Below are positions 8,621-44,799 of a stretch of DNA of 64,000 bases, one piece after another. The position numbers were made by a program, and so were the translations under genes. The DNA is from Microbacterium sp. zg-Y818 (lineage in GTDB: Bacteria; Actinomycetota; Actinomycetes; Actinomycetales; Microbacteriaceae). The stretch's first letter is position 1; every line of letters begins with the position of its first letter. The notes beneath the pieces were generated by a model. The model worked only from the letters and a program-made list of their open reading frames with translations. It did no database searches and had not been told where the DNA came from. The stretch is from the NCBI RefSeq assembly GCF_030246905.1, contig NZ_CP126741.1:1984001-2048000 (forward strand), written 5' to 3'.

Positions 8621-8649
8621 ATCATTTCTGATCAAACATCAAATGTCAA
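8621..8649 (-). promoter_or_regulatory. Leaderless promoter with embedded TGATC-N3-GATCA-type operator for the 8614 operon
   Basis: On the minus strand TTGACA (8649-8644) and AATGAT (8626-8621) are separated by exactly 17 bases. The 13-base imperfect palindrome TGATG-TTT-GATCA (8641-8629) is centred in that spacer. The -10 box is 6 bases from GTG 8614, the distance expected when the start codon is also the transcription start. The promoter overlaps the stop codon of the ABC ATPase gene (8646). Binding here would block RNA polymerase, so a repressor is the natural reading. Confidence 0.7.
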
Positions 8650-9629
8650 CTATTCAGGACGGGAATCAAGGGGAAATGGCAGGCGACGGAGTGCGTCTCC
8701 GAAACCGGGGTGAGAGCCGGCTCGATCTCCGCACAGATGGGCTGGGCGAGCGGGCAGCGCGTGCGAAACCGGCAACCCGACGGCGGGTTCACCGGCGAGG
8801 GCGGGTCGCCCGCGATCGCCGCCCGGGGCTCCGGCGCGAACGGATCAGGTTCGGGGATCGATTCGAGCAGCGCAAGGGTGTACGGATGCGCGGGCGACGC
8901 GTACAGCGACTCGGAATCGCCGACCTCGACGACCTTGCCGAGATACATCACCATCACGCGATCCGAGATGTTCTTCACCACCGCGAGGTCGTGCGCGATG
9001 AACAGGATCGACAGGTCGAACTCCGCCTGCAGGTCCTCGAGCATGTTCAGGACGGTGGCCCGCAGCGAGACGTCCAGCGAGGACACCGGCTCGTCGCAGA
9101 CCAGCACCTTCGCACCGGCGACCAATGCGCGCGCGATCGCCACCCGCTGGCACTGGCCACCGGACAGCTGCGTGGGCTTGCGGTCTCCGTAGTCGTCGGG
9201 GTTGAGTCCGACCGCCCGCAGCATCTCGTCGGCTCGCACCATTCGTTCCGCACGGGTTCCGCGACGCCAGATGGTCAACGGTTCGGCCACGATCTGCCGC
9301 ACGGTACGGCGCGGGTTCAGGGATGACACCGGATCCTGGAACACCATCTGCAGCTCCGGACGGAGCCGTCTCACCTGCTCGGCGCTCATGGTCGTCAGAT
9401 CGGCGCCTTCGAAGGTCACCGACCCCGACTTCGGAGCGGGGAGCTGGAGCACGGCACGCGCCATGGTGGACTTCCCGCAGCCGGACTCGCCGACGACACC
9501 GAGGGTCTCGCCGGCCTTCAGCTCGAAGCTGACCTGCGACACGGCGTAGACGGTACCCGCGCGGGTCGCGTACTCGACGACGAGGTCCTCTACCGCCAGG
9601 CGCACCTCGGACTTCGAATCCACGCTCAT
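8646..9629 (-). CDS. dppF: Oligopeptide-type ABC importer, ATP-binding subunit (DppF/OppF-like)
   Basis: 327 residues from ATG 9629, which overlaps the upstream ATPase stop as ATGA. Walker A is GESGCGKST, the signature is LSGGQCQRVAIARAL and Walker B ends VLVCDEP. The C-terminal segment GCRFRTRCPLAQPICAEIEP has the spaced cysteines of the OppF/DppF extension. It hydrolyses ATP in the cytoplasm to drive the importer formed with the genes up to 12715. Family 5 importers carry peptides, but also nickel, sugars and other organics; this catabolic setting argues for a degradable organic substrate. Confidence 0.93.
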   Translation of the reverse strand: MSVDSKSEVRLAVEDLVVEYATRAGTVYAVSQVSFELKAGETLGVVGESGCGKSTMARAVLQLPAPKSGSVTFEGADLTTMSAEQVRRLRPELQMVFQDPVSSLNPRRTVRQIVAEPLTIWRRGTRAERMVRADEMLRAVGLNPDDYGDRKPTQLSGGQCQRVAIARALVAGAKVLVCDEPVSSLDVSLRATVLNMLEDLQAEFDLSILFIAHDLAVVKNISDRVMVMYLGKVVEVGDSESLYASPAHPYTLALLESIPEPDPFAPEPRAAIAGDPPSPVNPPSGCRFRTRCPLAQPICAEIEPALTPVSETHSVACHFPLIPVLNS

Positions 9630-10771
9630 GCCGTCTCCTCGATCAGCTGGTGCGCCGCCGCCGCTGCTGCGGCGACGACGGCGGCGTTCTGGGCGGCCAC
9701 TCTGGCCTCGGTTTCCGCGCGCGCGGTCTCGTACTCGGCTGTACCGACCGGGAACCAGCAGCGGTACAGGTGATCGGGGTCGTCCGCACTGGCGACCAGG
9801 GGCGGAGCGCTGGCGCGACAGGTCTCCTGGGCTGCCGGGCACCGCGCAGCGAAGCGGCACCCCGCCGGCGGTGCCGCCAGGTTGGGCGGATGACCCGGGA
9901 TCGCCTTCAGCCGGGTGTGGCTCGGCTCATCGAGCTTCGGCAGCGCGTCCAGCAGCGCCCGGGTGTACGGCATCTTCACGTCTGTGAACAGCGCGCGCGT
10001 GGGCGCGCTCTCCACGATCTGCCCGGCGTACATCACCACGATGTGGTCAGTGCGGGTCGCGACGACTCCGAGATCATGGGTGACCAGGACCATCGTCATC
10101 TGCCGCTCCCGCTGCTGCCGCGCCAACAGATCGAGGATCTGCATCTGCACCGTGACGTCCAGCGCGGTGGTCGGTTCGTCCGCGAACAGCAGGCGGGGAT
10201 TGCCGGAGAGCGCGATCGCGATCCCTACGCGCTGGCGCATGCCGCCGGACATCTGGTGCGGATACACCTTCATGCGCCGCTCGGGCTCCGGAATCCCGAC
10301 GCTGCGCAGCAGTTCCACGCCCCGGGCGCGGGCCTGCTTCTTGGACAGCTTCGGATCGTGCCGGCGCACCGTCTCGACGACCTGGGCACCGATCTTCTTC
10401 ACGGGGTTGAGAGAGGTGAGCGGATCCTGCAGGACCATCGCGATCTCACTGCCCCACATCCGCCGCACCTTCTTGCGCGTCAGCGCGGTGAGCTCGATGC
10501 CGTCGAAGACGATCTCGCCACTGCGCTCGATGCGGGTGCCGGGCGAGACCAGGCCCATGATCGATCGCGCGAGCACCGACTTGCCCGACCCCGACTCCCC
10601 CACCACCCCCAGCGTCTGGCCGAGGCGCGCGGTGATGCTGACGTCGTCGACGGCGGTGACCGGGGCGGACCCGGCGGTGAACACGGTGCTGAGGTGGCGG
10701 ACGTCGAGGATCACGTCTCCCACCGCGGTCGCAGCGGCGGCGGATGCGTCGACACGGATGTCGTTGGTCAT
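9626..10771 (-). CDS. dppD: Oligopeptide-type ABC importer, ATP-binding subunit (DppD/OppD-like)
   Basis: 381 residues from ATG 10771; start and stop both overlap neighbours by four bases. Walker A is GESGSGKSV, the signature MSGGMRQRVGIAIAL, and Walker B LLFADEPTTALD. The C-terminus carries the cysteine-bearing extension GCRFAARCPAAQETC and then an unusually long Ala/Glu-rich tail of about 50 residues. It pairs with the DppF-like subunit as the second ATPase of the heteromeric importer. Confidence 0.93.
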   Translation of the reverse strand: MTNDIRVDASAAAATAVGDVILDVRHLSTVFTAGSAPVTAVDDVSITARLGQTLGVVGESGSGKSVLARSIMGLVSPGTRIERSGEIVFDGIELTALTRKKVRRMWGSEIAMVLQDPLTSLNPVKKIGAQVVETVRRHDPKLSKKQARARGVELLRSVGIPEPERRMKVYPHQMSGGMRQRVGIAIALSGNPRLLFADEPTTALDVTVQMQILDLLARQQRERQMTMVLVTHDLGVVATRTDHIVVMYAGQIVESAPTRALFTDVKMPYTRALLDALPKLDEPSHTRLKAIPGHPPNLAAPPAGCRFAARCPAAQETCRASAPPLVASADDPDHLYRCWFPVGTAEYETARAETEARVAAQNAAVVAAAAAAAHQLIEETA

Positions 10772-12751: not shown

Positions 12752-12780
12752 AATATATCTGATCAATCATCGGATGTGAA
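12752..12780 (-). promoter_or_regulatory. Promoter with embedded palindromic operator for the ABC importer operon
   Basis: On the minus strand TTCACA (12780-12775), a 17-base spacer and TATATT (12757-12752) lie 37 bases before ATG 12715. The operator CGATG-ATT-GATCA (12772-12760) is centred exactly in the spacer, as in the promoter at 8621-8649. This repeated geometry implies that one repressor controls both operons. Confidence 0.68.
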
Positions 12781-12872: not shown

Positions 12873-12885
12873 CGATACCTGATCA
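12873..12885 (+). promoter_or_regulatory. Operator copy in front of the GntR gene
   Basis: CGATA-CCT-GATCA fits the 13-base motif found at other promoters here. It lies 13 bases before ATG 12899 and abuts the AAGGA ribosome-binding site. Occupancy would hinder both elongation and translation initiation, which suggests autoregulation by the GntR protein. I see no clear -35/-10 pair next to it. Confidence 0.5.
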
Positions 12886-12898
12886 AGGAACCGCTCCA

Positions 12899-13585
12899 AT
12901 GGCCAAAAACCATGCACGGCTCGATCGCCCAGCCGCTCGGCCGAAGCTCGCCGACGAGATCGCCGAATCGCTACGCCAGGCGATCCTGCGCGGCGTGTAC
13001 GAGAAGGACGCGAAGCTGGGGATGGAGGAACTCGCCGAGGAACTCGGTGTGAGCATCATGCCCGTGCGCGAGGCCCTGATCGCCCTCAGCAACGAGGGCC
13101 TGGTCACTGCGGAGCCCCGTCGCGGTTTCCGCGCAAACCCGCTGACGCAGGCGGACCTCGACGACATCTTCCAGATCCAGGCGCAGCTGGGGGGCATCCT
13201 GGCCGCGCGTGCAGCCAGCGAGGCCACTGCGGAGGACGTCGAGACGCTGCGCCGCCTGCATGCCGAGCTGGAGGAAGCGAGTCGGCTTCCCGTCGGCGAG
13301 GAACGGTCCGCGCTGCTGGAACAGCTGAACGGGGCTTTCCACCGTCACATCAACAAGATCCCGACGGGCGACCGCCTGCGCTGGTTCTTGCGTCTGACGA
13401 ATCGCTTCGTGCGCCGCGACCTGTTCGACTCGGTGCCCGGCATGACCGAGGGCGCACTGCGCGACCACCCCGCGATCATCGACGCCATCGCCGCCGGCGA
13501 TGCGGACGCTGCCCGCGCACTCATGGAGTCCCACTTCATCCAGGGTTCCGACCTGGTCGGCTACACCCTCCCCGCCGACGACTAG
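12899..13585 (+). CDS. GntR-family transcriptional regulator, FadR/FCD subfamily
   Basis: 228 residues from ATG 12899 (AAGGAA upstream). Residues about 15-80 form a winged helix with LRQAILRGVYEKDAKLGMEE, then VSIMPVREALIALSNEGLV as recognition helix and RRGFRANPL as wing. Residues 90-220 are the all-helical FCD ligand domain, with spaced His/Asp residues (HRHINK, HPAIIDAI, ESHF) typical of a metal-assisted carboxylate pocket. It is divergent from the ABC operon and has the shared palindrome in front. This makes it the leading candidate regulator of the TGATC-N3-GATCA regulon, with an acid or CoA ester as effector. The assignment to the motif is inference. Confidence 0.92.
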   Translation: MAKNHARLDRPAARPKLADEIAESLRQAILRGVYEKDAKLGMEELAEELGVSIMPVREALIALSNEGLVTAEPRRGFRANPLTQADLDDIFQIQAQLGGILAARAASEATAEDVETLRRLHAELEEASRLPVGEERSALLEQLNGAFHRHINKIPTGDRLRWFLRLTNRFVRRDLFDSVPGMTEGALRDHPAIIDAIAAGDADAARALMESHFIQGSDLVGYTLPADD

Positions 13586-13593
13586 CGCCGCCG

Positions 13594-15689: not shown

Positions 15690-16811
15690 TCAGCCCATCA
15701 ATTCGTCGCGCAGCGACGCGAGGCGGTCGAGCGTCTCGGCGTACTCCTCCACGATCTCGAGGATGATCCGGTTGCACGACTTGATGGCGTTCATGCGGGT
15801 GACCCCCTGGCCCACCGGACCACCGACGAGGTCCCACACACCGGCACGCCGGGCGCGGTCGGTGTACTCCGAGTAGAGCATCTGCTGCAACGGCATCGGC
15901 AGGTTGCCCGGGCTGTCCGGCCCGTCCCACGCCTCGGTCCAGGGCGTGCGGATCTGACGGTTGTACTTGCCCGTCTGGGACTTGGAGCGCACGGTGTCAC
16001 TCGAGGTCATCTCGAGCATGTGCTCCTTGACGCGCTGGTCGGTGGACGACTCCTGCGAGGTCAGCCAGATCGACCCCGTCCAGATGCCCTCGGCACCGAG
16101 CGCCATCGCCGCCGCCATCTGCCGACCGGTCGCGATCCCGCCCGCCGCCAGAACGGGTGTCCCATCAGCGGCATCCACAACATCCGGGGTCAGCACCATC
16201 GAACCGATGTCGCCGGTGTGCGCGGCAGCCTCGTACGACTGGGCGATGTAGACGTCGATGCCGGTACCGGCACTCTTGGCGATATGCTCGGGCTTCCCGA
16301 CGAGCGCACCGACTTTGGCGCCCCGCGCATGCGCCCGCTCGATCGTCTCGACCGGAGGAGCACCCAGTCCACTGACGAGGAACGGGATGTCGTGGGCGAA
16401 GACGGCTTCCAGCTGCGCTGCACCATATGACGCGCTCAGCCCTTTCGCTCCGAAGCGGCGTGCCGCGTCGACCGGCATCGGCACCTGGTAGCGGTCCATC
16501 AGCGCTTCCGCGAACGCACGGTGCCCCTCGGGGATGAGCTTGTCCAGATCCGCCACGAGACTCTCGGTATCGGTGAGGCCCTGCTCCCGGTCGGCCGTCT
16601 TCGCGGGCATCACGACGTCCACTCCGAACGGAACGTCGCCGCACTGCTCCTTGAGCCAGGCGATCTCGACGTCGATCTCGTCGGGGGACATCGCCACCAC
16701 GCCGAGCACGCCCATACCGCCGGCTTTGGAGACCGCCGCCACGACGTCACGGCAGTGGCTGAAGGCGAAGATCGGGTACTCGATGCCGAAGTCACGACTG
16801 AGCTTGTTCAT
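15690..16811 (-). CDS. Nitronate monooxygenase-family FMN oxidoreductase
   Basis: 373 residues with the FMN TIM-barrel of the 2-nitropropane dioxygenase family: YPIFAFSHCRDVVAAVSKAGG at the start, FLVSGLGAPPVETIERAHARGAK, then AAHTGDIGSMVLTPDVV and VLAAGGIATGRQMAAAMALGA. The His in HTGD is at the family's base position. In actinobacterial steroid catabolism, members of this family (IpdC type) act as flavin-dependent CoA-ester reductases rather than on nitroalkanes, so a reductase role is plausible here. First gene of a three-gene operon with P450 and SDR. Confidence 0.85.
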   Translation of the reverse strand: MNKLSRDFGIEYPIFAFSHCRDVVAAVSKAGGMGVLGVVAMSPDEIDVEIAWLKEQCGDVPFGVDVVMPAKTADREQGLTDTESLVADLDKLIPEGHRAFAEALMDRYQVPMPVDAARRFGAKGLSASYGAAQLEAVFAHDIPFLVSGLGAPPVETIERAHARGAKVGALVGKPEHIAKSAGTGIDVYIAQSYEAAAHTGDIGSMVLTPDVVDAADGTPVLAAGGIATGRQMAAAMALGAEGIWTGSIWLTSQESSTDQRVKEHMLEMTSSDTVRSKSQTGKYNRQIRTPWTEAWDGPDSPGNLPMPLQQMLYSEYTDRARRAGVWDLVGGPVGQGVTRMNAIKSCNRIILEIVEEYAETLDRLASLRDELMG

Positions 16812-16842: not shown

Positions 16843-16880
16843 TGATATTCGATCATATTTGTGAATCGTCGCGCATTCAA
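16843..16880 (-). promoter_or_regulatory. Promoter and overlapping palindromic operator for the 16811 operon
   Basis: On the minus strand TTGAAT (16880-16875), 17 bases, then TATGAT (16857-16852). The 13-base motif copy (16855-16843; TGATA-TTC-GATCA on the plus strand) overlaps the -10 box. The mRNA leader would be about 34 bases. Confidence 0.62.
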
Positions 16881-20880: not shown

Positions 20881-22991
20881 GACGTGCTTCCCGTCCGGTC
20901 GAACACGATGAGGGCGTCGGCGGCGACCGCCCGACCCTCGTGGACCCGGACGGGGTTGACATCGATCTCGACGATCTCGGGCGCATCGAGCGCCAGTCGC
21001 CCCACGGCGACCGCGGTCCGCGCCAGCTCATCGAGTTCGGCCTCGTCGAGACCGCGGGCGGCCGATGTGATCCGCCCATCGAGCAGCCCTGCGATCGTCC
21101 GGCGGGCCATCTCGTGCGAGAACGGCGCGTGCAGCAGCACCGCTGCGGCCATGATCTCCACGGCCACGCCCCCGAGCCCCACGGCGACGACCGGGCCGAA
21201 GACGGGATCGCGGCGCATCCCCACGGTGAGCTCGAGCCGGGCGGGCACCATCTCCTGTGCGAGCACGCCGACGACCTCTGCGTGCGGGGCCTTGCGTGCG
21301 ACCTCCGCGAGCATGTCGTCGGTCGCCTGGACCGCGTCAGCGGCCCGCACACCGAGCCGGATCGCACCGTACTCCGTTTTGTGCGGAAGATCGTAGCTCA
21401 TGGCCTTGAGTGCGATCGGACCCGAGATCTCTCCCGCGAAGGCCGCGGCATCCGTCCCGTCGATCGCCAGACGCTCGCGCGTCACCGTGACGCCGTAAGC
21501 GGCCAGGAGCGCCTTGGCATCGTGCTCCAGCATGGTGGGCCGGCCCGCGGCCGGCATCAGCAACCGCGGCAGATCGGTCGGTGCCGCACCCTGCACGCCG
21601 GCATCCTCAAGGGGCGTTCGCTGCGACTGGCGGGCAACCGCCGCGAGCGAGCGCATCAGCCGGTGCGGGTCGAGATAGATCGGCACGCCCGCGGCCTGGA
21701 ACTTGTCCATGTAGCCGGTGGACAGCACGAAGTACGGCTTGTCGGTGGACAGGTACGTCTCGACGATCCGGTCGTTCGAGGCGAACTCGCCCTGCCACGT
21801 CACGACCGCCATGCTGTCGTACGTGTCCAGATCCCGGACCGCATCCAGCACCAAGCCGAACGACTGCGGCGATGCCGTCCCCTGCGCGGTGATGTCGACG
21901 GGATTCTCGATGCTGCCGTAGAACGGCTGGGGCATGACGGCCGTGATCCGCTCCACCGCCTCCGCCGGCGGCGGCGGGACCTCCAGGCCGGAGGAGGCCG
22001 CGGCATCCGTCAGCAGCACGCCGGCGCCGCCGGAAGCGGTGACGATACTCACCGCGCCGCGACGGGCACGCCGGCCGTCCTGGAACGCCAGGCCGAGATC
22101 GATCAGCTCCTCCATCGAGTGGGCGATGTGGATGCCGTACTGCCGGCACACCGCGTCGAGCACATCCGCCGAGCCGGTGACCGAGGCGGTGTGGCTCATC
22201 GCGGCGCGCGCGGCCGCCTCGGTGCGCCCGGCTTTGAGCAGCGCGATCGGCTTGTCGAGCTCGTGGGCGCGGCGTGCGGCTCGGATGAGCGTCTCGGGCT
22301 CCTTGAGCGACTCGCTGAACACGAGCACCGTGCCCACCTCCTCGCGCTCGACCAGGTGCTCGACCGCATGGGCGAGCACAACGCCTGCTTCGTTGCCGGT
22401 GGAGACGAAGTAGCCGAGTCGGATGCCGGCGCGCAGTGACGCGTTCGTCAGATACGACGCGAAGCCGCCGCTCTGCGAGACCAGCGCGACGGGCCCGGGC
22501 TCGGGCAGGGCGACCGCGCCGGACATGGCGAAGTTCGCCATGACACCCTCGTGGAGGTTCATGTAGCCGATGCAGTTCGGGCCGAGGACCCGGATGCCGG
22601 TCTCCTGGACGATGCGGGCGAGCTCGGCCTGACGGGCGATGCCCTCCGGCCCGGACTCCGAGAATCCCGAGCTCAGCAGCGTCACTCCGCCGACGCCCTT
22701 CGTGGCCAGCCGGGCGACGGCGGCAACGGCCTGCTCGGCCGGAACCGCGACGATGGCCATGTCGACGCCGTCCGGCAGCGCATCGACGTCCGCCACCACC
22801 GGCAGCCCGGCGAGGAGGTCGGCGCGGGGGTTCACCGGGTAGATCTCGCCCGCGAAGAGTCGCACGATGTTGTCGAGCAGCTGCGTGCCGATGCGTCCCG
22901 GCTTGTCGGAGGCGCCGACGACGGCGATGGAGCGCGGAGAGAGCAGCCGGGTCAGGTCGGACACGCTGACCGCCATGGCGTCCGCGCTCAT
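20877..22991 (-). CDS. NDP-forming acyl-CoA synthetase (acetate-CoA ligase ADP-forming family)
   Basis: 704 residues. Order of domains: CoA-binding Rossmann (LLSPRSIAVVGASDKPGRIG), two succinyl-CoA-ligase-like domains with VLGPNCIGYMNL and the phospho-histidine loop MSHTASVTGSAD, then an ATP-grasp domain (LAAYGVTVTRERLAIDG to IVEIDVNPVRVHEG). These enzymes form acyl-CoA from acid, CoA and ATP via a phosphohistidine, releasing ADP. Position in the side-chain operon suggests it activates a carboxylated intermediate. It overlaps the SDR gene upstream and the MaoC-N gene downstream by four bases each. Confidence 0.92.
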   Translation of the reverse strand: MSADAMAVSVSDLTRLLSPRSIAVVGASDKPGRIGTQLLDNIVRLFAGEIYPVNPRADLLAGLPVVADVDALPDGVDMAIVAVPAEQAVAAVARLATKGVGGVTLLSSGFSESGPEGIARQAELARIVQETGIRVLGPNCIGYMNLHEGVMANFAMSGAVALPEPGPVALVSQSGGFASYLTNASLRAGIRLGYFVSTGNEAGVVLAHAVEHLVEREEVGTVLVFSESLKEPETLIRAARRAHELDKPIALLKAGRTEAAARAAMSHTASVTGSADVLDAVCRQYGIHIAHSMEELIDLGLAFQDGRRARRGAVSIVTASGGAGVLLTDAAASSGLEVPPPPAEAVERITAVMPQPFYGSIENPVDITAQGTASPQSFGLVLDAVRDLDTYDSMAVVTWQGEFASNDRIVETYLSTDKPYFVLSTGYMDKFQAAGVPIYLDPHRLMRSLAAVARQSQRTPLEDAGVQGAAPTDLPRLLMPAAGRPTMLEHDAKALLAAYGVTVTRERLAIDGTDAAAFAGEISGPIALKAMSYDLPHKTEYGAIRLGVRAADAVQATDDMLAEVARKAPHAEVVGVLAQEMVPARLELTVGMRRDPVFGPVVAVGLGGVAVEIMAAAVLLHAPFSHEMARRTIAGLLDGRITSAARGLDEAELDELARTAVAVGRLALDAPEIVEIDVNPVRVHEGRAVAADALIVFDRTGSTS

Positions 22992-23752
22992 CGGACCATC
23001 ATCGATCCGCCGTCGACCGACAGCACCTGGCCGGTCATGTAGCTCGACGCGGAACTGGCCAGGAACATGTATGCCGGCGCGATCTCCTCGGGCTCGGCGA
23101 AGCGGCGCAACGTGCTCTTGCTGGGATCAGCACCGAACTTGGGATCGGTCATGACCTTCCGCGTCATGTCGGTCAGCGCCGCGGGCGCGACGGCATTGAC
23201 GAGGATGTTGTAGCGCCCCAGCTCCTTGGCGGCGCTGCGCATGAGGCCGAGCATGCCGGACTTCGCCGCCGCGTAGTTGACCTGGCCGATCGATCCGTTC
23301 TGCGCGGTCGACGACGAGGTGAAGATGATCCGGCCGCCACCGGCTTCGATCATGGGCTCGACGACCTCCTTCAGCCAGTAGAACGAGGCGTTGAGGTGGA
23401 CCCCCATCACCTGTTCCCACTCCTCGTCCGTCATCTTGCGGATCATGGCGGGGCGTGTGATGCCGGCATTGCTCACGAGGACGCGAATGGGACCCAGACT
23501 CGCGGTGACGGATGCGACCGCGGCACGCACGCTCTCGCGCTTCGCGACGTCGCAGCCGATCGCCACGGCGCGACCGCCGGCATCCTCGATCTCGCGCACG
23601 ACCGCCTGCGCGGCGCGCTCCTGGACGTCGATCACGGCCACGTGGGCGCCGTGCTCGGCGAAGGCGAGGGCGATCGAGCGGCCGATGCCCTGGGCTGCTC
23701 CGGTGACGGCGACGACAGTGCCCTCGAACTCGGACGGGGACCACGGACTCAT
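22988..23752 (-). CDS. Short-chain dehydrogenase/reductase
   Basis: 254 residues from ATG 23752, preceded by AAAGGAG. Cofactor motif TGAAQGIGRSIA, Asp-containing VIDVQER after beta-2 (NAD preference), SNAG, TSSSTAQNG with the catalytic Ser, NYAAAKSGM with Tyr/Lys and DGGSMMVR at the end. First gene of the eight-gene operon ending at 16905. Likely a 3-hydroxyacyl-CoA or hydroxysteroid dehydrogenase; the sequence does not separate these. Confidence 0.92.
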   Translation of the reverse strand: MSPWSPSEFEGTVVAVTGAAQGIGRSIALAFAEHGAHVAVIDVQERAAQAVVREIEDAGGRAVAIGCDVAKRESVRAAVASVTASLGPIRVLVSNAGITRPAMIRKMTDEEWEQVMGVHLNASFYWLKEVVEPMIEAGGGRIIFTSSSTAQNGSIGQVNYAAAKSGMLGLMRSAAKELGRYNILVNAVAPAALTDMTRKVMTDPKFGADPSKSTLRRFAEPEEIAPAYMFLASSASSYMTGQVLSVDGGSMMVR

Positions 23753-24059
23753 GGGCAGCTCCTTTGATGCTGAATCCGATTCGGAAAGAATCGAGCAGTT
23801 CATTCGTAGCCGTCCACTGCTACAGTGTCAAATACTTGATCAGAAATCTTCTCCGCAATGATGCGTCGAAAATGCCTTTGATCTGGGATTGCTAGACCAA
23901 ACAGTCGGCGACCCCGACCACGGCACTCCGGACGCAGTCCTCAAAACCCGCGGACCGCATCGGCTCGGCCGACGCGGCGAAGCGGGTCCGAGGATGAATC
24001 TGATTCACACATCACCTTTCAGCACACGCACGAATCCAGCACACGCACGAAGGAGTCGC
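23753..24059. other. 307-base divergent intergenic region
   Basis: No coding potential seen. For the minus gene, TTGACA (23831-23826), 17 bases and TACGAA (23808-23803) form a candidate promoter. For the plus gene I cannot assign a convincing -35/-10 pair. The operator copy at 23830-23842 lies between both. A second half-site-like TTTGATCT is at 23877. A GAAGGAG ribosome site precedes ATG 24060. Confidence 0.6.
23803..23842 (-). promoter_or_regulatory. Candidate promoter of the side-chain operon with operator copy
   Basis: Minus-strand TTGACA-17-TACGAA. The motif copy AAATA-CTT-GATCA (23830-23842, plus-strand reading) abuts the -35 box; its right half is perfect and its left half poor. The sequence TTGATCAGAAAT is shared with the promoter at 8621. 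Confidence 0.5.
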
Positions 24060-26248: not shown

Positions 26249-26851
26249 ATCTCCACCCGCACCAGCAGATCCGCCCCGGCCGCCCCCACGACCGGGGCGG
26301 CCCTGGATGCCGCCGCCGAGTTGTTCGTCGAGCATGGCTACCAGGGAACGGCGATGTCCGACATCGCCCGTCACGCGGGCATGAGCGTCGGCACGCTGTA
26401 CAACCGGTTCCCGAGCAAGTCCGACCTGTTCCTGGAAGTGTTCCGCTCGTACGGGCGCCGACAGGGCGAACGGGTGCGCGATGCGATCGCCAGCGCCCGT
26501 AGCGCCGGTGTGGCCGATGACGTCGATCTGTTCGTCGCCGGAACACATGCCTATCTCGTGGGGGCCTTCCGCGAGGCCGCTCTCGGACGCCTGTTCCACA
26601 CCATCGGCACTGCGGAGATCGACGTCTCGTCCATCCGTTCCGGGCAGGAGATCTGGCTGGAGCGGAACGCGCGTCAGCTGGGCCTGGTTCTGGGGACGCC
26701 GCGCGCCGACGCAATCGCCGCCGCCATAACCGGCGCCCTGGGCGGCTGGGTGCGCGGCGTGCAGCTCTGTGACGACGACGTCGACGCCCTGGCCTACATC
26801 GCCGAGGTCGTCGCCGTCGAGCGGAAGATGCTCCGCGCCGTCATGGGCTGA
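26249..26851 (+). CDS. TetR-family regulator with probable non-canonical ATC start
   Basis: The DNA-binding domain is clear: ALDAAAELFVEHGYQGTAMSDIARHAGMSVGTLYNRFPSKSDL, read in two adjoining stretches. The first helix of the domain lies upstream of the only ATG/GTG/TTG candidate (TTG 26321), which would destroy it. No canonical start exists in frame after the previous stop region. ATC 26249 sits 7 bases behind GGAG and would give 200 residues. Alternatives are CTG 26303 or a sequencing error. Co-oriented with the acyl-CoA dehydrogenase pair 13 bases upstream. Its 3' end overlaps the convergent aldehyde dehydrogenase gene by 11 bases. Confidence 0.82.
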   Translation: MSTRTSRSAPAAPTTGAALDAAAELFVEHGYQGTAMSDIARHAGMSVGTLYNRFPSKSDLFLEVFRSYGRRQGERVRDAIASARSAGVADDVDLFVAGTHAYLVGAFREAALGRLFHTIGTAEIDVSSIRSGQEIWLERNARQLGLVLGTPRADAIAAAITGALGGWVRGVQLCDDDVDALAYIAEVVAVERKMLRAVMG

Positions 26852-29155: not shown

Positions 29156-30733
29156 TCACTGCTCGAGCCACGCGGTGTCGAGGTAGACCATCGTGCTGCC
29201 CATGTAAGGCTGCTCCGGCGTGCCCAGGTGCAGCTTGGTGCTGTGAGCCATCGCAGCGGTGTACGGCGACGTCCAGAACAGGATGGACTTGTCGTGGATG
29301 ATCTTCGTCACGTCCTGCCAGGCCTTGTTCCGATCCTCGAGCGTGAGCTCGTCGCGGGCACGCAGCAGGGCCGCATCGAGGTCGTCGTAGGTGACCATGC
29401 CCCAGTTCGTGCCGCCGGAGTAGTACCGGGTCCACACCGTCGGGAAGCCGGCGGATGCGGTCGAGCCGAAGAAGACCCCGTAGTCACCCGCGGCCTGGCG
29501 CTGAGCGAGCGTCGCGGCGTCCACCGCGGTCACCGTCACGTTGAGGCCGATCTCGTTGAACTGCTGCTGGTAGTAGGTCGCCTGGTCGGTGAGCGTCTGG
29601 AAGTAGACCAACTCCATGTCCGGGCTGCCACCCTCGGCCAGATACTCCTGAACGAGCTCCTGCGCCTTCTCGATGTCCTGCGCGTTCGTCGCCCCCGGGG
29701 CACACGCGGGCGATTCCGGTGCGAAGGGAACGCAGGAGACGTCACCGTCCCACACCTCGGTGCCACCGAACAGCACCTGCGCCGTCACCATGGGGTCCAG
29801 CGCCATCGTCATCGCCTCGCGGACGCGCTGGTCACTGCCCGGCCCCGTCGTGCCGTTGGGCACGAGCGCCTGACCACCGGTCGGCACGGGAATCATGACG
29901 AGGTTCGGCAGGCCGCTCACCGCGTTCCAGGCGTTGCCCTGGACGAGTCCCATGTGCTTGCCGCCGGAGATGAGGTCGTCGGTACGGGTCTGCGGGTCCA
30001 CCATCACCGTGTAGACGATGCCGTCGAGGTAGGGCTTGCCCTCGTCCCAGTAGTCGGGGTTCTTGTTGAGGACGAGCTTGTCATCCGGCGTCCACGACTC
30101 GAAGACGAACGGGCCGGCGCCGACCGGGTTGGCGTTGAACGCGGCGGGGTCGGCGAGCGCCTTGGGCGAGCCGATGAGACTGGCCGGCGATGACCCGGTC
30201 AGCGCGAGGGGGAAGGAGCCACTCGGCGCGGACAGCGTGATGGTGACTTCGTATTCGCCGGTTGCCTCCATCGTGGCGATACCCGACAGCAGCGCCTTCG
30301 CGGTGCTGGTGGAATCGGGGGCGATGTGACGCTCGAGGTTGAAGATGACAGCCTCGGCGTCCAGCGGCTCCCCGTCGGTGAACGTGACGCCTTCGCGCAG
30401 TTCGAGGATCCACACCAGGCCGTCGTCCGAGGTCATCGAAGAGGCGAGCTTCGGGAACACTTCGTCGGTCAGGTCGTCACGCATGAGCAGCGTGTCCATC
30501 ACCTGCGCAGCGCGCTCGACGCCGGTGCCGACGTTCGCGAGCTTCACCGGGTCGAAACCGGGCATCTCGGAGAGCGCGGCGATCTGTGCGATGCCGCCCA
30601 TCTGGATCTCGGCCGTGGCGTTCGCCGCAGGCGCTGCGGAGTTCTCGCTCACGCCGCCGCACCCGCTCAACGTCAGGGCAAACACCGTCGCTGCCGCGGC
30701 CATGACACCGAGACGCATTCGCTTGTTCTTCAT
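29156..30733 (-). CDS. Family 5 ABC substrate-binding lipoprotein
   Basis: 525 residues from ATG 30733 (AAGGA upstream). Basic N-terminus, hydrophobic stretch and lipobox LSGC with Cys25 as lipid attachment site. The SBP_bac_5 fold follows, with DEVFPKLASSM, LELREGVTFTDGEPLDAEAV and NPVGAGPFVFESW. A membrane-anchored receptor on the outer face. The gene stands alone, with its own promoter and hairpin terminator. By eye it is roughly three-quarters identical to the lipoprotein at 37901-39487. The Dpp-like channel at 8646-12715 lacks a receptor and has the same operator type, so it is the likely partner. Confidence 0.93.
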   Translation of the reverse strand: MKNKRMRLGVMAAAATVFALTLSGCGGVSENSAAPAANATAEIQMGGIAQIAALSEMPGFDPVKLANVGTGVERAAQVMDTLLMRDDLTDEVFPKLASSMTSDDGLVWILELREGVTFTDGEPLDAEAVIFNLERHIAPDSTSTAKALLSGIATMEATGEYEVTITLSAPSGSFPLALTGSSPASLIGSPKALADPAAFNANPVGAGPFVFESWTPDDKLVLNKNPDYWDEGKPYLDGIVYTVMVDPQTRTDDLISGGKHMGLVQGNAWNAVSGLPNLVMIPVPTGGQALVPNGTTGPGSDQRVREAMTMALDPMVTAQVLFGGTEVWDGDVSCVPFAPESPACAPGATNAQDIEKAQELVQEYLAEGGSPDMELVYFQTLTDQATYYQQQFNEIGLNVTVTAVDAATLAQRQAAGDYGVFFGSTASAGFPTVWTRYYSGGTNWGMVTYDDLDAALLRARDELTLEDRNKAWQDVTKIIHDKSILFWTSPYTAAMAHSTKLHLGTPEQPYMGSTMVYLDTAWLEQ

Positions 30734-30799
30734 CGAGCATCCTTTCCGCCGCGCATCGTCGCGCGGCGATCCCCGCCGCAACTCCGCGGCTCAGACCCA

Positions 30800-30828
30800 G
30801 TAATACCCGATTTTTGATCAAACGTCAC
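30800..30828 (-). promoter_or_regulatory. Promoter with operator for binding-protein gene 1
   Basis: Minus strand GTGACG (30828-30823), 17 bases, TATTAC (30805-30800). The motif copy TGACG-TTT-GATCA (30827-30815) covers the -35 box and the start of the spacer. The leader to ATG 30733 is about 60 bases. Confidence 0.6.
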
Positions 30829-35611: not shown

Positions 35612-36553
35612 GTGCGCTCGCAGCTCAGACATCCGGTGCTCGACTATTTCCGCATCCTCGAACTCCGGGCACGGAGTACCGCCGTGCGCGATCGGGTCGC
35701 GGGCGAAACAGGACTGCCGCTGACGCCCCTCGACAACGCCGCGTTGGTCGTCGTCGAGCGGGAGCCGCACCTCACGATCTCGCGCCTCGCCGCCGCCACC
35801 GGCGTGAGCGTCGCACGAGCCAGCCGCCAGGTGGCGAGACTCGAGGAGTTCGGTCTGCTCACCCGCACGACCGCTGCGCACGACGCCCGCGCCGCAGTGC
35901 TCTCCCTATCGGCCGCGGGACACGACGTGCGGGGACGATGGGGACAGCGTTGGCCAGCCGACTACGAGGCCGCCATCACGACTCTCGACCCGGTCGCCCG
36001 AGAGGCGCTCTGGACCGGGGTGCCGCGTCTGCACGCAGACCTGGCCCGGCAGCCGGAGCTGCGTGGGCTGGACCCGGGGTCGGCACCCACAGTCGACGCA
36101 CGCGACATCTCCGCCCTGGTGGCGTTCGCACAATGGGCGGCGCCGATCCTCTACCACCCGTCGTACGCCCGCAGCCTGATCGAGCGCAGCAGCACGAACC
36201 TCAGTCCGCAATCACTCTTCGTCCTGCGGATCTGCGCGGGCTCCCCGCAGATGGATATCGGCGATCTCGCCGCAAGCGCGCACATCGACCCCTCGTCGGT
36301 CAGCCGCCATGTGGCGAGACTGGCGGACGACGGGCTCCTCAGCCGTCACACCAACCCCGACGACGGCCGCAGCACCGTCGCGACGGCGACCATCGGCGGC
36401 CGTCACGTGCTCCAGGTCATCGAGTCGCTTGAACTCGCACCGATCGGCCGAGCCATGTCTTCCTGGGAACCGGCGGAGATGAATGCGACTCTGAGCGCCG
36501 TGCGCGCCCTCGCCGACGGACTTTACGCGCAGTTCGCCGCGTCCTCGGCCTGA
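35612..36553 (+). CDS. Tandem (fused) MarR-family transcriptional regulator
   Basis: 313 residues from GTG 35612. Two winged-helix repeats lie in one chain. Residues about 40-110 contain TISRLAAATGVSVARASRQVARLEEFGLL and a wing. Residues about 205-275 contain MDIGDLAASAHIDPSSVSRHVARLADDGLL and the wing DDGRSTVATATIGG. MarR proteins normally work as dimers of about 150 residues, so this appears to be a covalent pseudo-dimer whose two halves can diverge. It is divergent from the nitroreductase operon. A second candidate for the regulator of the local palindrome regulon. Confidence 0.88.
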   Translation: MRSQLRHPVLDYFRILELRARSTAVRDRVAGETGLPLTPLDNAALVVVEREPHLTISRLAAATGVSVARASRQVARLEEFGLLTRTTAAHDARAAVLSLSAAGHDVRGRWGQRWPADYEAAITTLDPVAREALWTGVPRLHADLARQPELRGLDPGSAPTVDARDISALVAFAQWAAPILYHPSYARSLIERSSTNLSPQSLFVLRICAGSPQMDIGDLAASAHIDPSSVSRHVARLADDGLLSRHTNPDDGRSTVATATIGGRHVLQVIESLELAPIGRAMSSWEPAEMNATLSAVRALADGLYAQFAASSA

Positions 36554-36575: not shown

Positions 36576-36588
36576 TGATCTTTGATCA
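36576..36588 (+). promoter_or_regulatory. Perfect operator copy upstream of the HtaA-like gene
   Basis: TGATC-TTT-GATCA, a perfect palindrome, 60 bases before GTG 36648 and directly followed by GA and TAGGCT, a TAnnnT-type -10 candidate. The same 13-mer, read on the other strand, occurs at 44787-44799. Confidence 0.62.
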
Positions 36589-36647
36589 GATAGGCTTCTG
36601 GGGCGGATGGGCATTCGGAGCCCGCACCCGCGGGGAGGAGGCGCACC

Positions 36648-37082
36648 GTGGCGTCACTGGAATGGCCCATCCGCCGATCGTTGATCGCCTACGTAGGCGA
36701 CCTCGATGACGGCGAGGTTCTGCTCGCGGGTGGCGCACGGGACTCCCCCGCCGGATACGTCTTCCCGTCCGCCTGCGAGCCCGACGGCGACGTCCTCCGT
36801 TTCGCCGGATCCGTGACCGTGACCGGATATGAGGGCGCGCTGACCCTTCCCATCGTCGATCCCTGGATCGATTCCGAGGAGAGCGGATTCCGCCTCACGA
36901 TCCAAGACCCCGCCGCGCCCGATTCGCGGATCCGCCTCGTCACGATCGCACGGCTCGAACCGCAGCCGGACGGCACCATCCTCGGTCGCGGCGTGGCATT
37001 GGCCTCACCGGGCTCGCTCCTGCTGACCTTCGGCCCCTACGTCGCGGGGACGCCCTTCGACGACCTGCGCATCACCACATGA
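36648..37082 (+). CDS. Single HtaA-like domain protein without signal peptide
   Basis: 144 residues from GTG 36648 (GGAGG upstream). The pattern fits one HtaA domain: LEWPIRRSLIAYVGDL at the start, VLLAGGARDSPAGYVFP, then FAGSVTVTGYEGALTLPIVDP. HtaA domains are known from surface heme-binding proteins of actinobacteria with signal peptide and anchor. This copy has neither and is predicted to be cytoplasmic. Its stop overlaps the crotonase start (ATGA), so it belongs to the catabolic regulon. A role as binding or chaperone protein for a hydrophobic intermediate is speculation. Confidence 0.68.
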   Translation: MASLEWPIRRSLIAYVGDLDDGEVLLAGGARDSPAGYVFPSACEPDGDVLRFAGSVTVTGYEGALTLPIVDPWIDSEESGFRLTIQDPAAPDSRIRLVTIARLEPQPDGTILGRGVALASPGSLLLTFGPYVAGTPFDDLRITT

Positions 37083-37887: not shown

Positions 37888-37913
37888 GCTGTCGCTGGAA
37901 TCAGCGCGACAGC
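37888..37913. terminator. Hairpin between convergent crotonase and binding-protein genes
   Basis: An 8-base perfect stem (37888-37895 with 37906-37913) and a 10-base loop bridge the gap between the convergent stops at 37870 and 37901; the second arm lies inside the binding-protein stop region. No T-tract. Confidence 0.45.
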
Positions 37914-39487
37914 CAGGCCTCGTCGAGGTAGACCATCGTGCTGCCTTCCCACGGGTGACCGGTGATACCGAGGTGCAGGTCGCTCGAGTGCGCCATCGCC
38001 ATCTGGTACGGCGCGATCCACAGGAGGACCGCATCGTCGCGGATGATGCTGGCGACCTCCTGCCAGGCCGCGTTCCGGTCGTCCAACTCGACGGCGTCGC
38101 GCGCCTCGAGCAGGGCGGCATCGAGCGCGGGGATCGCCCCGCGGCCCCAGTTCTGCCCGCCGGAGTAGTAACGGCTCCACACGGTCGGGAATCCCGAGGA
38201 CGCCGTCGATCCCTGGAGCAGCTCGTAATCGCCGGCTGCTTGCGCCTGCGTGTGCGTCGCCGTGTCGACCGCCCGCAGGTTGGCGGTGATGCCGATCTGC
38301 GCGAGCTGCGACTGCACGTACTGCGCCTCCGTGGCGAACGACGGGATCGCGTAGTGGACATAGTCGACGACCGGTTCACCGTGCTGGGCGGTGTAGTCCG
38401 CGACCAGCTCCCGGGCCTTCTCGAGGTCTTGCGGGTAGGTCGCCCCCGGGAGGCAGGCCGGGGAGCCGATCGGGACCGGCGTGCAATCCATCGTCCCGTC
38501 CCAGTACTGCGTGCCCCCGAACAGGACGCCGGCCGTCGTCGCACCATCGAAGGCGTACAGCAGCGCTTGACGCAGCCGCTCGTCGGTGAACGGCCCCGTC
38601 GACGAGTTGGGGATCAAGGCTTCTCCGCCGGTGGGGATGGTGGTCAACTCGATCGTGGGGATGCCGCCCACCTGCGTCCAGGATGACCCGGGCACGAGGG
38701 CGAGGTCTGTCCCGCCGGCGATGAGGTCGTCCGTGCGGGTCTGCGGATCCACCCGCACCTGGTACTCGACGCCGTCGAGATAGGGCTTGCCCTCGTCCCA
38801 GTAGTCCTCGTTCCTGGTGAGCGTGAGGGTGTCGTCCCGCACCCACGACTCCAGCACGAAGGCGCCCGCCCCCACCGGATTCGCATTGAAGGTCTCGGGG
38901 TCGGCCAGTGCCGTCGGCGAGCCGATCAAGCTCGCCGGCGACGAACCCGTCAGAGCCAGGGGGAAGGAGCCGCTCGGCTGCGTCAAGGTGATCGTGACCT
39001 CGTACTCATCGGTCGCCGTCATCGTGTCGATCGCTGAGAGCATCGCCTTCGCCGTACTCGTCGAGTCGGGCGCGATGTGGCGCTGCAGGTTGAAGATCAC
39101 CGCTTCGGCATCCAACGCCGTGCCGTCGGTGAACTCCACCCCCTCGCGCAGTTCCAGCACCCAGGTCTGACCGTCGGCGGAGGAGATGCCCTCGGCCAGC
39201 TTGGGGAACACCTCATCGGTCAGCTCGTCGCGATAGAGCAGCGTGTCCATGATGGCTGCGGCGCGCTCGAGCCCCGAACCGACGTTGGTCACCTTGACCG
39301 GGTCGAAGCCCTGCATCTCGGTCAGTGCCGCGATCTGCGCGACGCCGCCGGTCTGGATCTCCGAAGCGCCGGCGCTCGGTTGTCCGGCGCCACCGGCATC
39401 GCCGCCGCTCCCGCAGCCGACGAGCAGGAAGGAGACGACAGCGCAGCCGGCGATGGCGGAAAGGGCAGAACGGCGAGGCTTCAACAT
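37901..39487 (-). CDS. Family 5 ABC substrate-binding lipoprotein (paralogue 2)
   Basis: 528 residues from ATG 39487 (GAGGGAG upstream). Lipobox LVGC with Cys25. The mature part tracks the 29156 protein almost segment by segment (DEVFPKLAEGI, LELREGVEFTDGTALDAEAV, NPVGAGAFVLESW). Differences concentrate in the second half, where ligand specificity is expected (GGEALIPNSSTG, QHGEPVVDYVHY). A surface receptor that probably shares the Dpp-like channel with paralogue 1 and widens its substrate range. Stands alone with an operator copy upstream. Confidence 0.93.
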   Translation of the reverse strand: MLKPRRSALSAIAGCAVVSFLLVGCGSGGDAGGAGQPSAGASEIQTGGVAQIAALTEMQGFDPVKVTNVGSGLERAAAIMDTLLYRDELTDEVFPKLAEGISSADGQTWVLELREGVEFTDGTALDAEAVIFNLQRHIAPDSTSTAKAMLSAIDTMTATDEYEVTITLTQPSGSFPLALTGSSPASLIGSPTALADPETFNANPVGAGAFVLESWVRDDTLTLTRNEDYWDEGKPYLDGVEYQVRVDPQTRTDDLIAGGTDLALVPGSSWTQVGGIPTIELTTIPTGGEALIPNSSTGPFTDERLRQALLYAFDGATTAGVLFGGTQYWDGTMDCTPVPIGSPACLPGATYPQDLEKARELVADYTAQHGEPVVDYVHYAIPSFATEAQYVQSQLAQIGITANLRAVDTATHTQAQAAGDYELLQGSTASSGFPTVWSRYYSGGQNWGRGAIPALDAALLEARDAVELDDRNAAWQEVASIIRDDAVLLWIAPYQMAMAHSSDLHLGITGHPWEGSTMVYLDEAWLSR

Positions 39488-39525: not shown

Positions 39526-39538
39526 AGATCTTTGATCA
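39526..39538 (-). promoter_or_regulatory. Operator copy upstream of binding-protein gene 2
   Basis: AGATC-TTT-GATCA on the plus strand, one mismatch from perfect. On the minus strand a TTGCCG-18-TAACCT candidate promoter ends at 39538, so the operator would begin right after the -10 box. The leader to ATG 39487 is about 45 bases. Confidence 0.55.
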
Positions 39539-42641: not shown

Positions 42642-43783
42642 CGCTGGCCTCCGAACCGCTTCAGGACGTCCTTGCCGACGATCATCTTCTGCAGTTCGAT
42701 GACCCCCTGCCCGACTTCGTAGAACTTGCCCTCCCGGTACAACCGCTCGAGCACCATCTCCTGGGTGAACCCGTACGCACCGCACACCTGCATGGCGAGG
42801 CTCGTCACCTCGCGTGCCATCCGGGCGCAGACGATGCGCGTGGAAGCGGCGATCACCTTGAGATTCGGATCACGGCGGTCCACCGCCTCGGCGGCCGCGT
42901 GAACGACTGCGCGGGCACCGTCGACCTGCGCGGCCATCTCGCCGAGGATCCCCTGGATGGTCGGGAACTTCTCCCCGATCGGCTCGCCCCGGTGCTCGCG
43001 GCCCAGCGCATAGATGGCCGCTTCCTCGAGAGCCCGGCGGCCGATCCCGATGGTGATCGCGCTTGCGCGCACCTTCGCCTCCGACTCGGTCCCGACCATG
43101 ATGTCGAACCCACCGTCCTCCGCGCCCAGCAGCGCGTCCGCGGGAACGCGCACGTCGATCGACACAGGTGCCGTCCCCTGCCCGCCGAACGCGAGCATCT
43201 TGATCGGCGGACCCGGCTGCCAGCCGGGGTCGCTGGTGTCGACGAGGAACGCACCCAGCCGCCGCTCACTCGTCTTGGCGAACACGAGCGCGACATCTGC
43301 ATACGGCGCGAACGACGTGAACATCTTCGAGCCGGTGATAACCCAATCGTCGCCGTCGCGCCGCGCCCACGTCCGGATCTGCTGCGGGTCCGAGCCGGTC
43401 TGCGGCTCGGTGAAGGACCAGGCGCCCAGCATCCCGCCACTTATGAGGCCGGCGCCCCACCGCGCCTTCTGCTCGGGCGTGCCGAAGCGGTCGATCGCGG
43501 TCGCCACCTGCACCGTCGGCCCTGAGTACAGGGCGGCGCACGCGCCGTGACTGGCCACTTCCTCGATCCCTTCGACGTAGGCGCGGAACGATCCGTCGTG
43601 TCCGGCCTCCTCGTCGACGAAGGGCATGGTCGGCAGGCCGAGTTCGCACAACAGGTCCCACAGTTCGCGGGAGAACTCCTGGGTGCGGTCGACCTGGGTG
43701 GCGAGGTCGCGGATGCGCTCTCGACCGACCTCGCGCAGGATGTCGAGCAGATCGGGGTCGAGCGGACGGGATTCGACGGTCAC
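42638..43783 (-). CDS. Acyl-CoA dehydrogenase with canonical catalytic Glu
   Basis: 381 residues from GTG 43783. GAWSFTEPQTGSDPQQI and DDWVITGSKMFTSFA mark the middle domain. The C-terminal KFYEVGQGVIELQKMIVGKD keeps Glu at the standard catalytic position, so unlike the two paired enzymes it can act as an ordinary homotetramer. LAMQVCGAYGFTQEMVLERLYRE is the FAD-domain helix. It is 24 bases downstream of the cyclase gene and overlaps the synthetase gene by four bases, consistent with activation followed by dehydrogenation. Confidence 0.92.
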   Translation of the reverse strand: MTVESRPLDPDLLDILREVGRERIRDLATQVDRTQEFSRELWDLLCELGLPTMPFVDEEAGHDGSFRAYVEGIEEVASHGACAALYSGPTVQVATAIDRFGTPEQKARWGAGLISGGMLGAWSFTEPQTGSDPQQIRTWARRDGDDWVITGSKMFTSFAPYADVALVFAKTSERRLGAFLVDTSDPGWQPGPPIKMLAFGGQGTAPVSIDVRVPADALLGAEDGGFDIMVGTESEAKVRASAITIGIGRRALEEAAIYALGREHRGEPIGEKFPTIQGILGEMAAQVDGARAVVHAAAEAVDRRDPNLKVIAASTRIVCARMAREVTSLAMQVCGAYGFTQEMVLERLYREGKFYEVGQGVIELQKMIVGKDVLKRFGGQR

Positions 43784-43807
43784 GGAGGGCCTTCGTGTCG
43801 GGCCGTG

Positions 43808-44758
43808 TCAGAGCACGGCGACGGGAGATATGGGGCTGCCGGTGCCACCACGCAAGCGCAGCGGCAGGGCGATGAAGAGGAAGGATGCTGCGCCTCGACG
43901 GCTGAGTTCTTCCAGGTCGAGGAACTCCAGCAGGTAGATCCCGCAATCGCGGATGAGGAACTGATGCACCGGGCACACCGTGCCGGGAGCCCACGGGATC
44001 ACCTCGACGCCGCTGTTGTCGGCGCCGACGAGCGTGACGTCGCGACGGGCGAGGTACTCGGACGCATCCAGCCCGATACCCGGGCGATCGCCGTGGTACT
44101 CCACGCCCTCCTCGCGGTACGCACTGATCCAGCCGGTGCGGATCAGCACGGCGTCCCCCGGCTGGAGCGAGACTCCCTGCGCCTCGAGGGTCGCGTCGAT
44201 GTCCGCCCCGGTGACCTCGTACCCGGGTTCGAGCCGCGTGACACCGAAATGGCGTGGGAGGTCCACCAGCACCCCACGGGAGACGAGTGGCGGCGCCTTG
44301 TCGATCCCGAGCTTGCGCAGGCCGCCGGAGCGCACCTCGGTCTGGGGGTACCCGTTGTAGAGCGTGTCGTCGTACCAGACGTGGCCCAGCGCGTCGAGGT
44401 GCGTGGTGCCTCCGTGCACAGCGAGGCTCACGTGATCGGTCGCGGACTGGAAGCCGCTCGGTGCGGTCATGCCGGCGAGGAAATCGCCGGCATCGCGCAT
44501 CATGAAGTGCTGCGGGGCAGCTCCGTTCCGCGGCGCGTCGCGGTCGCCGATCACCTGTCCGAGGGGGACGATCTCGCCGGTCTGCGCGAGGGCCAGCGCG
44601 GCGAGCACTGCGGCGGGGGTCGAGTGGTTCGCGGCGCCGCGCTGATCGTCGGCCCCCCACCGGCCCCAATTGCTGAAGTCCGGGCGGGGCGGGGTGTCGC
44701 CGTCGGCCGAGCGCGGCGTGAACTGCGACGTACTCACGAACGGATCCCTTCGTTCCAC
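43808..44758 (-). CDS. Cyclase-family metal hydrolase (kynurenine formamidase-like)
   Basis: 316 residues from GTG 44758, with an alternative GTG at 44737 that also has a ribosome site. SLAVHGGTTHLDALGHVWYD is the metal motif of the cyclase family (HxGTHxDxxxH). GRWGADDQRGAAN near the N-terminus and LVGADNSGVEVIPW in the second half are characteristic of the longer subgroup. Members hydrolyse amides or lactone-like rings. Opening of a lactone formed by one of the luciferase-like enzymes is an attractive but unproven role. First gene of the unit ending at 39541. Confidence 0.87.
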   Translation of the reverse strand: MERRDPFVSTSQFTPRSADGDTPPRPDFSNWGRWGADDQRGAANHSTPAAVLAALALAQTGEIVPLGQVIGDRDAPRNGAAPQHFMMRDAGDFLAGMTAPSGFQSATDHVSLAVHGGTTHLDALGHVWYDDTLYNGYPQTEVRSGGLRKLGIDKAPPLVSRGVLVDLPRHFGVTRLEPGYEVTGADIDATLEAQGVSLQPGDAVLIRTGWISAYREEGVEYHGDRPGIGLDASEYLARRDVTLVGADNSGVEVIPWAPGTVCPVHQFLIRDCGIYLLEFLDLEELSRRGAASFLFIALPLRLRGGTGSPISPVAVL

Positions 44759-44784
44759 ATTGAACCTCTGCTACGACCATACAA

Positions 44785-44799
44785 TATGATCAAAGATCA
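44785..44799. promoter_or_regulatory. Perfect operator between divergent cyclase and P450 operons
   Basis: TGATC-AAA-GATCA at 44787-44799, a perfect palindrome. For the plus genes TATGAT (44785-44790) with TTGAAC 19 bases before overlaps it. For the minus gene the site lies just upstream of a TATTGT/TTGTAT -10 candidate. One bound regulator would control both directions. Confidence 0.65.

Follow-up and report, generated by a model that had tools for sequence, protein, structure and literature searches.

The window analysed here, a 64,000-nucleotide stretch (positions 1984001-2048000) of the single-contig, 3,234,984-base genome of Microbacterium sp. zg-Y818 (genome G000), carries genes for an Opp-type importer, two SBP_bac_5 binding proteins, P450s, acyl-CoA dehydrogenases, hydratases and CoA transferases, and also a thiolase with a ChsH2-like partner. 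Among them lie the gene of a GntR/FCD regulator at 12899 and nine related 13-base sequences (Table 1), which the original prediction had read as operators of the form TGATC-N3-GATCA that tie about 36 kb of catabolic operons into one regulon. Just past the window (L019:219-7501) follow HsaA-, HsaD-, hydratase- and acetaldehyde-dehydrogenase-type genes, an extradiol dioxygenase, KshA (PF19298, 3e-88) and an IclR gene; a KstD-like flavoprotein is also encoded just past the window. Because Hsa-, Ksh- and KstD-type genes adjoin it, the region, called the island below, suggests steroid-type catabolism, with the exact substrate left wide by the scores: apart from that of the acetaldehyde dehydrogenase, the NCBIfam scores stay below NCBI's cut-offs.

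Table 1. Predicted operators and regulator genes of the window (window positions; "." marks a palindrome listed without strand)
Feature	Position	Strand	Context
Operator CATTTCTGATCAAACATC	8623..8640	.	precedes catabolic genes on the minus strand, running from 8635 to 1664
Operator TATATCTGATCAATCATC	12754..12771	.	precedes ABC importer genes on the minus strand, running from 12766 to 8646
Operator GATACCTGATCAAGGAAC	12874..12891	.	7 bases ahead of the GntR ATG; putative autoregulatory site; counterpart in G216
GntR/FCD (VanR-type) regulator	12899..13585	+	candidate repressor at all sites; 228 aa long, with VSIMPVREAL as recognition helix
Operator TGATCGAATATCA (minus strand)	16843..16855	-	overlaps the -10 of genes 15690-16811 and P450 14429-15634
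Operator AATACTTGATCAGAAATC	23831..23848	.	gap between side-chain genes (minus, 22988-23803 down to ~17.7 kb) and acyl-CoA dehydrogenase genes (plus, 23889)
TetR protein	26321..26851	+	rejected as shared regulator; absent from the original prediction's list
Operator GATTTTTGATCAAACGTC	30809..30826	.	precedes SBP_bac_5 binding protein 29156-30781
Tandem-MarR protein	35612..36553	+	rejected as shared regulator
Perfect 13-mer	36576..36588	-	palindrome 36577-36594 (2 mismatches); precedes 36648 (+)
Operator TGATCAAAGATCT	39526..39538	-	precedes SBP_bac_5 binding protein 37901-39487
Perfect 13-mer	44787..44799	+	flanked by minus-strand cyclase/acyl-CoA dehydrogenase genes (43808-44758) and plus-strand P450 44966
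Weak candidate site TTATCGAATATCG	52353..52365	+	score 15.7; directly precedes AMP-ligase 50766-52352 (minus)

All nine 13-mers were found at the predicted coordinates, and their number exceeds chance. Oriented and aligned they read TGATCAAAnATCA, with TGATC in 9/9, A6 and A7 each in 8/9, A10 in 8, T11 in 9 and C12 in 8 of the sequences; at position 9 none of the nine has an A. The copies at 36576 and 44787 match TGATC-N3-GATCA perfectly, those at 8629, 16843 and 39526 have one mismatch, those at 12760, 12873 and 30815 have two and the one at 23830 has three. As judged with a simple gene caller based on G+C at third codon positions (GC3), all nine lie in gene-start gaps, as predicted, and none within a gene; the sites at 8629 and 12760 touch only a mechanically extended TTG start.

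A scoring matrix made from the nine sites (leave-one-out scores 14.2-24.6) returned 12 positions of 16 or more in the window, namely the nine sites and three overlapping partners. In 30 windows simulated with a first-order Markov model the mean was 0.63 and the largest number 2, and 14 control stretches of the same genome (280 kb) held 5 positions at this threshold and none at 18 or above. TGATC-N3-GATCA with up to three mismatches was observed 286 times, compared with 211 (standard deviation 14) in shuffles. With at most one mismatch it occurs at 80 places in the genome and is too loose as a genome-wide search motif; the specificity sits in the fuller consensus. Its density at that threshold is nevertheless uneven, at about 108/Mb in the island versus 23/Mb elsewhere (4-5x). 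The strict site, defined as the 13-mer consensus TGATCAAAVATCA of the window sites with at most one mismatch, has eight genome matches, seven of them (two overlapping) within 65 kb (1992629-2057340).

Since the matrix was derived from the sites themselves, matches outside the window and clusters in other genomes are the stronger tests. The genome search proposed with the original prediction did yield strong copies beyond the window, a perfect site at 2057328-2057340 (window +73328), 9.3 kb past the window end, and a strong double site at 2066658/2066665. The sites thereby reach +82.7 kb or further, and they probably begin at -9.5 kb. The region is larger than the 36 kb first proposed, and it looks steroid-type. 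A score-18 site that includes several ATC/GTCAA elements spaced 7 bp apart precedes a second cyclase gene (L018, genome 1974504-1974547) and is also found in genome G216, from the same genus.

The dyad and spacing first assigned to the operator are probably wrong. The 13-mer would instead represent one arm and the core of a longer palindrome, GATnTYTGATCARAnATC, centred on TGA/TCA. Four of the nine sites consist of two overlapping 13-mers (scores 13.8 to 25.4) that share TGATCA: 8622/8629, 12753/12760, 23830/23837 and 30808/30815. When the palindrome GATNTYTGATCARANATC was searched with up to three mismatches, all 8 genome matches fell inside the island (1992623-2066676), while its reversed control had 0; the window contains 6 matches versus 0.16 expected. 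In genomes with homologues of the GntR gene, 9/14 (G216), 6/10 (G217), 5/9 (G059) and at least 4/20 (G058) of such matches are in or near the island or the GntR locus, and in G209 0/10 lie within 20 kb of a 43% GntR homologue. We also compared complementarity over eight pairs in 24 sites, hand-picked from five other genomes with 13-mer matrix scores of at least 15.9; lone like-scoring matches (G217 2058364 and 2089386, G059 35430) and overlapping partners fall outside this set. Symmetry was 65% about TGA/TCA versus 52% about the 13-mer centre.

It seems unlikely that the operator is the 13-mer itself, with one dimer on TGATC-N3-GATCA and additional dimers brought in by GATC/ATC elements that recur at 7-bp intervals. 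A precedent for such an arrangement is NanR, for which excerpts of PMC8012715 describe three dimers on (GGTATA)3. The 13-mer is indeed conserved by itself, as the invariant TGATC attests, ATC elements recur at 7-bp spacing in some sites (e.g. G059 8612-8638), and the 11 sites of the own genome tie, with 61% symmetry about either dyad. However, the 24 sites from elsewhere favour TGATCA despite having been selected with the 13-mer matrix, perfect TGATCA-centred palindromes that lack the outer GATC persist in distant homologues (e.g. ATATTTGATCAAATAT), and GTCAA, the third element, is readable as a -35 box on the opposite strand.

The likeliest regulator of the sites, to judge from its distribution, is the GntR/FCD protein at 12899, which had been one of two candidates and has, as predicted, a site at its own start. 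Its domains are a GntR winged helix-turn-helix (PF00392, 3.7e-18) and an FCD domain (PF07729, 7.9e-17). The AlphaFold2 model (predicted local distance difference test score 89.7) finds GntR-family regulators including Atu1419 as its best PDB matches, with VanR-type FCD structures outranking FadR entries. The residues N144, H148, H190 and H212 are invariant in 40 homologues; the metal/carboxylate pocket of FCD domains is formed by D/N, H, H and H. Homologues (at most 1e-30) occur in 6/366 genomes of the genus, counting its own, and plasmids contain none at 1e-20; the closest homologue (92%) is from Microbacterium sp. Root166.

Strict matches accompany this gene between genomes. They lie near GntR in 8/10 cases in G216 (92% homologue), in 3/6 in G058, Thermocatellispora tengchongensis (72%), in 2/3 in G217 (54%) and in 5/8 in G059 (47%). 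With distances chosen per genome the binomial p values are 5e-10 (G216), 3e-4 (G217), 8e-7 (G058) and 6e-10 (G059); with a single 75-kb distance they are 5e-10, 4e-3, 4e-5 and 2e-6, respectively. In Thermocatellispora (L169-L172) a single island holds two GntR copies (72 and 67%) separated by 20 kb; a strong site stands some 65 bp ahead of one of them, and a weaker site (score 14.5) immediately precedes the second. No site cluster accompanies the 37-43% homologues whose helices differ (SATP in G209, SSTP in G134 and G144, STTP in L072): the 40 kb of G209 and the 20-kb stretches from G134 and G144 contain nothing that scores 14 or above, and L072 has one score of 14-16. The own genome contains nine other FCD-type matches, and the helices read for four genes in three stretches are SATP, SATP, SRVP and SPTP, a fourth stretch having no readable helix. 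On the basis of the co-inheritance and this helix comparison, the sites were assigned to the GntR protein at 12899.

That another regulator of the island binds the sites is improbable. Five candidates (GntR, TetR 26321, TetR 62114, ArsR and the tandem MarR) were compared by tblastn against seven related loci sets, and only GntR occurs in all seven. The tandem MarR at 35612, the alternative named in the original prediction, drops out: it has matches of 73% in G216, of 32% in G058 and over a partial 97 residues in G061, and none in G217, G059, G060 or G209, although G217 and G059 are site-rich and keep GntR. TetR 26321 has a full-length match only in G216 (partial matches cover 51 residues in G058 and 47 in G209). 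Both TetR proteins and ArsR lack a match in G217 and G059, where the loci carry sites, and were rejected as shared regulators. The same two genomes have no match to the IclR gene at about +66.0-66.8 kb, outside the window, for which the comparison did not include the counterpart stretch of G216. In favour of these candidates, a perfect site lies 19 bases ahead of the start codon of the ArsR gene (+72952-73308), and G058 also has homologues of the tandem MarR and of IclR (46%). IclR (L019:2034-2795) may exert separate control over the stretch L019:219-7501 in which it lies.

With respect to promoters, the original prediction had placed sites in the spacer or on the -10 or -35 box, which holds for three of the nine. 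The site at 8629, whose sequence TGATCAAACATCA recurs in G216 and G058, lies inside a 17-bp spacer between TTGACA (8644-8649) and AATGAT (8621-8626), and that at 12760 in a 17-bp spacer between TTCACA (12775-12780) and TATATT (12752-12757). The site at 16843 overlaps the -10 element TATGAT (16852-16857) of a TTGAAT-17-TATGAT promoter. For the other six a sigma70-like scan gave weak matches only at 23830 and 44787, and no match at 12873, 30815, 36576 and 39526. The three overlaps fit the predicted, and probable, repression at the promoter. Least probable of all is a role of the sites as activator or promoter elements, such as those of an alternative sigma factor. A tendency towards GTCAA (TTGAC when read on the opposite strand) at a constant distance from the core might suggest it (T18 in 15/24 aligned sites), but the sites face either way relative to the genes, three of them overlap a -10 or a spacer instead of being located upstream, and the set is palindromic and tracks the GntR gene between genomes.

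We therefore consider it highly probable that one repressor, the VanR-type GntR/FCD protein at 12899, controls all sites as a single steroid-type catabolic regulon, an idea that the clustering of the sites and their co-inheritance with GntR across genomes support. From these computed patterns we infer binding, repression, inducer and substrate as follows. A dimer of the protein would bind an imperfect 16-18-bp palindrome centred on TGA/TCA (GATnTYTGATCARAnATC). Such operators would lie within or next to core promoters, both that of the regulator's own gene and those of the genes for the Opp-type importer, the binding proteins, side-chain degradation, P450s and CoA-ester metabolism, and the bound protein would shut these promoters. 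A pathway metabolite in the FCD domain, perhaps a CoA ester (the fold also allows a small carboxylate), would release it, and the 75-90 kb island would be switched on as one unit. If this is true, a large importer-linked, steroid-type island in Microbacterium and Thermocatellispora would have one master repressor and a searchable operator.

Several observations weigh against this interpretation. The consensus is derived from the window sites themselves, and six of the nine sites have no good sigma70-like promoter. The symmetry tie within the own genome bears on the choice of the longer palindrome, and a -10 element may add to its left arm. G216 carries nearly the same island and is not an independent case. 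Only 1/7 strict matches is near the gene in G061 (42%) and 0/4 in G060 (41%), where only looser matches (scores 16.6-17.0) are found; these two results suggest that the link fades with distance. Finally, the check for possible regulators covered part of the island genes, and IclR is also present in G058.

Some further features deserve mention. The island is mostly present in G216, and parts of it in G217 and Thermocatellispora. The weak candidate at 52353 has a counterpart of equal score in G216. Another weak match, ATATCAAATATCT at 59037-59049, lies within a P450 gene and is also found in G216, which probably reflects coding constraint. The gene after the perfect 36576 site (36648-37082) has a match to HtaA (PF04213, 2.7e-9), which we take to be a domain of haem-uptake type and which is odd for such a pathway. 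Outside the window, the perfect site at 2057328-2057340 separates the divergent ArsR gene (window 72952-73308) from the KstD-like flavoprotein, whose mechanical start at 73057 is probably too early, and a third SBP_bac_5 binding protein is encoded at L019:11037-12626.

In a profile alignment with entry 6z74 (Atu1419), Ile53 of the 12899 protein stands opposite Arg45 of Atu1419. Since its recognition helix lacks the Arg of the studied relatives, the protein probably reads a different word. GATC-centred palindromes also precede GntR genes in Pseudooceanicola, Alloyangia, Sinorhizobium, Jannaschia, an Anaerolineales and an Acidobacteriota genome, and in eight genomes chosen for having one, ATNTNTGATCANANAT with at most one mismatch occurs 1, 1, 2, 2, 4, 6, 7 and 7 times. 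At 75 distant control loci we counted 34 sites versus 3.2 expected from permuted matrices, and 50/75 had none. Two sets of upstream regions were then sorted by helix class, with statistics that ignore phylogenetic dependence. In set 1 (115 regions including the window GntR and near relatives; L041 and L057 excluded as having no readable helix), which suggested a helix rule, GATC-centred palindromes with at most one mismatch precede 25/43 Arg-less SxMP genes versus 2/72 others (p 1e-11). In set 2 (54 new regions, without the query's own loci L187 and L217, one duplicate upstream sequence, and L218, L231 and L242 with no readable helix) the same threshold gave 4/19 versus 3/35 (p 0.19, not significant), and a split into non-Arg and Arg genes gave 7/41 versus 0/13 (p 0.13). 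Both results count against the rule, as does the control core CATG, found with at most one mismatch in 2/43 and 2/19 of the Arg-less SxMP regions.

Perfect GATC-centred palindromes (8 in set 1, 3 in set 2) all belong to the Arg-less SxMP class, which in set 2 amounts to 3/19 versus 0/35 (p 0.039, post hoc); seven other palindromic cores gave no perfect match at all across the 169 regions. In set 2, exact TNGTN2ACNA precedes 5/13 Arg genes versus 0/41 others (p 4e-4, post hoc); in set 1 the figures are 6/53 versus 3/62 (p 0.17). The helix-operator rule is suggestive but unproven. A broader proposal seems to us equally likely to hold or to fail: that FCD regulators with VSxMPVREA, where x is any residue but Arg, constitute a separate operator class in several phyla, that loss of the Arg accompanies a switch from GT-Nx-AC to GATC-centred palindromes (ATnTnnGATCnnAnAT), and that the regulator of the window has spread such an operator across an entire steroid-type island. 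The choice between GT/AC and GATC operators may depend on a single helix position (Ile53/Arg45), which would be a piece of the GntR recognition code.

For islands of this kind TetR-type KstR regulators would be expected. The KstR/KstR2 regulons of actinobacterial sterol catabolism resemble the present case in having many operators over a large steroid-type region, but KstR is a TetR protein with another motif, TnnAACnnGTTnnA, which occurs 0 times in the window versus 0.06 expected. A partial literature search, which covered neither subscription papers nor RegPrecise, found no GntR operator of the TGATCA-centred kind; it paired GntR with GATCAAAGATC in no paper, gave nothing related by title for GntR with TTGATCAA or for GntR, FCD and TGATC together, and found no literature on the GntR family and steroid catabolism in Microbacterium.

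GT...AC boxes are usual, not defining, for operators of the FCD subfamily of GntR. FadR-subfamily operators carry such boxes, whereas the alignment of the island sites is without them and has the core TGATCA; the predicted operator thus departs from the GntR norm. FadR proper was rejected as a model, as the 12899 protein has an FCD domain, finds VanR-type folds first and has a predicted operator unlike TGGT-N3-ACCA. According to excerpts of an operator survey, FadR-subfamily operators are TKGT-N2/3-ACMA palindromes at metabolic gene promoters and FadR Arg45 is listed as an Arg-G specific contact; the correlation analysis there took only GntR-consensus motifs, and exceptions such as BioR (TTATMKATAA) are listed (PMC4494728).

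Two further characterized repressors bear comparison. DhdR, the D-2-hydroxyglutarate repressor, is likewise of GntR type, and its DNA complex 9jpj is among the fold matches of the 12899 protein. In excerpts of its description a 13-bp palindrome, GTTATCAGATAAC, with ATC/GAT half-sites is reported for dhdR-d2hgdh, and the two TGATCA strings there are mutated oligonucleotides (PMC8651671). Its dyad and spacing are unlike those of the island operator. Atu1419 of Agrobacterium fabrum, from the VanR group of the FCD subfamily, represses catabolic genes and its own gene from palindromes that lie over the -10 and in the -35/-10 spacer; its operator is ATGTATACAT, in which Arg45 reads the essential G3 and a G3A exchange abolishes binding (excerpts of PMC7797058). 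The 12899 protein shares the architecture and fold of Atu1419 but has Ile53 in place of Arg45, and its predicted operator is centred on TGATCA without GT/AC.

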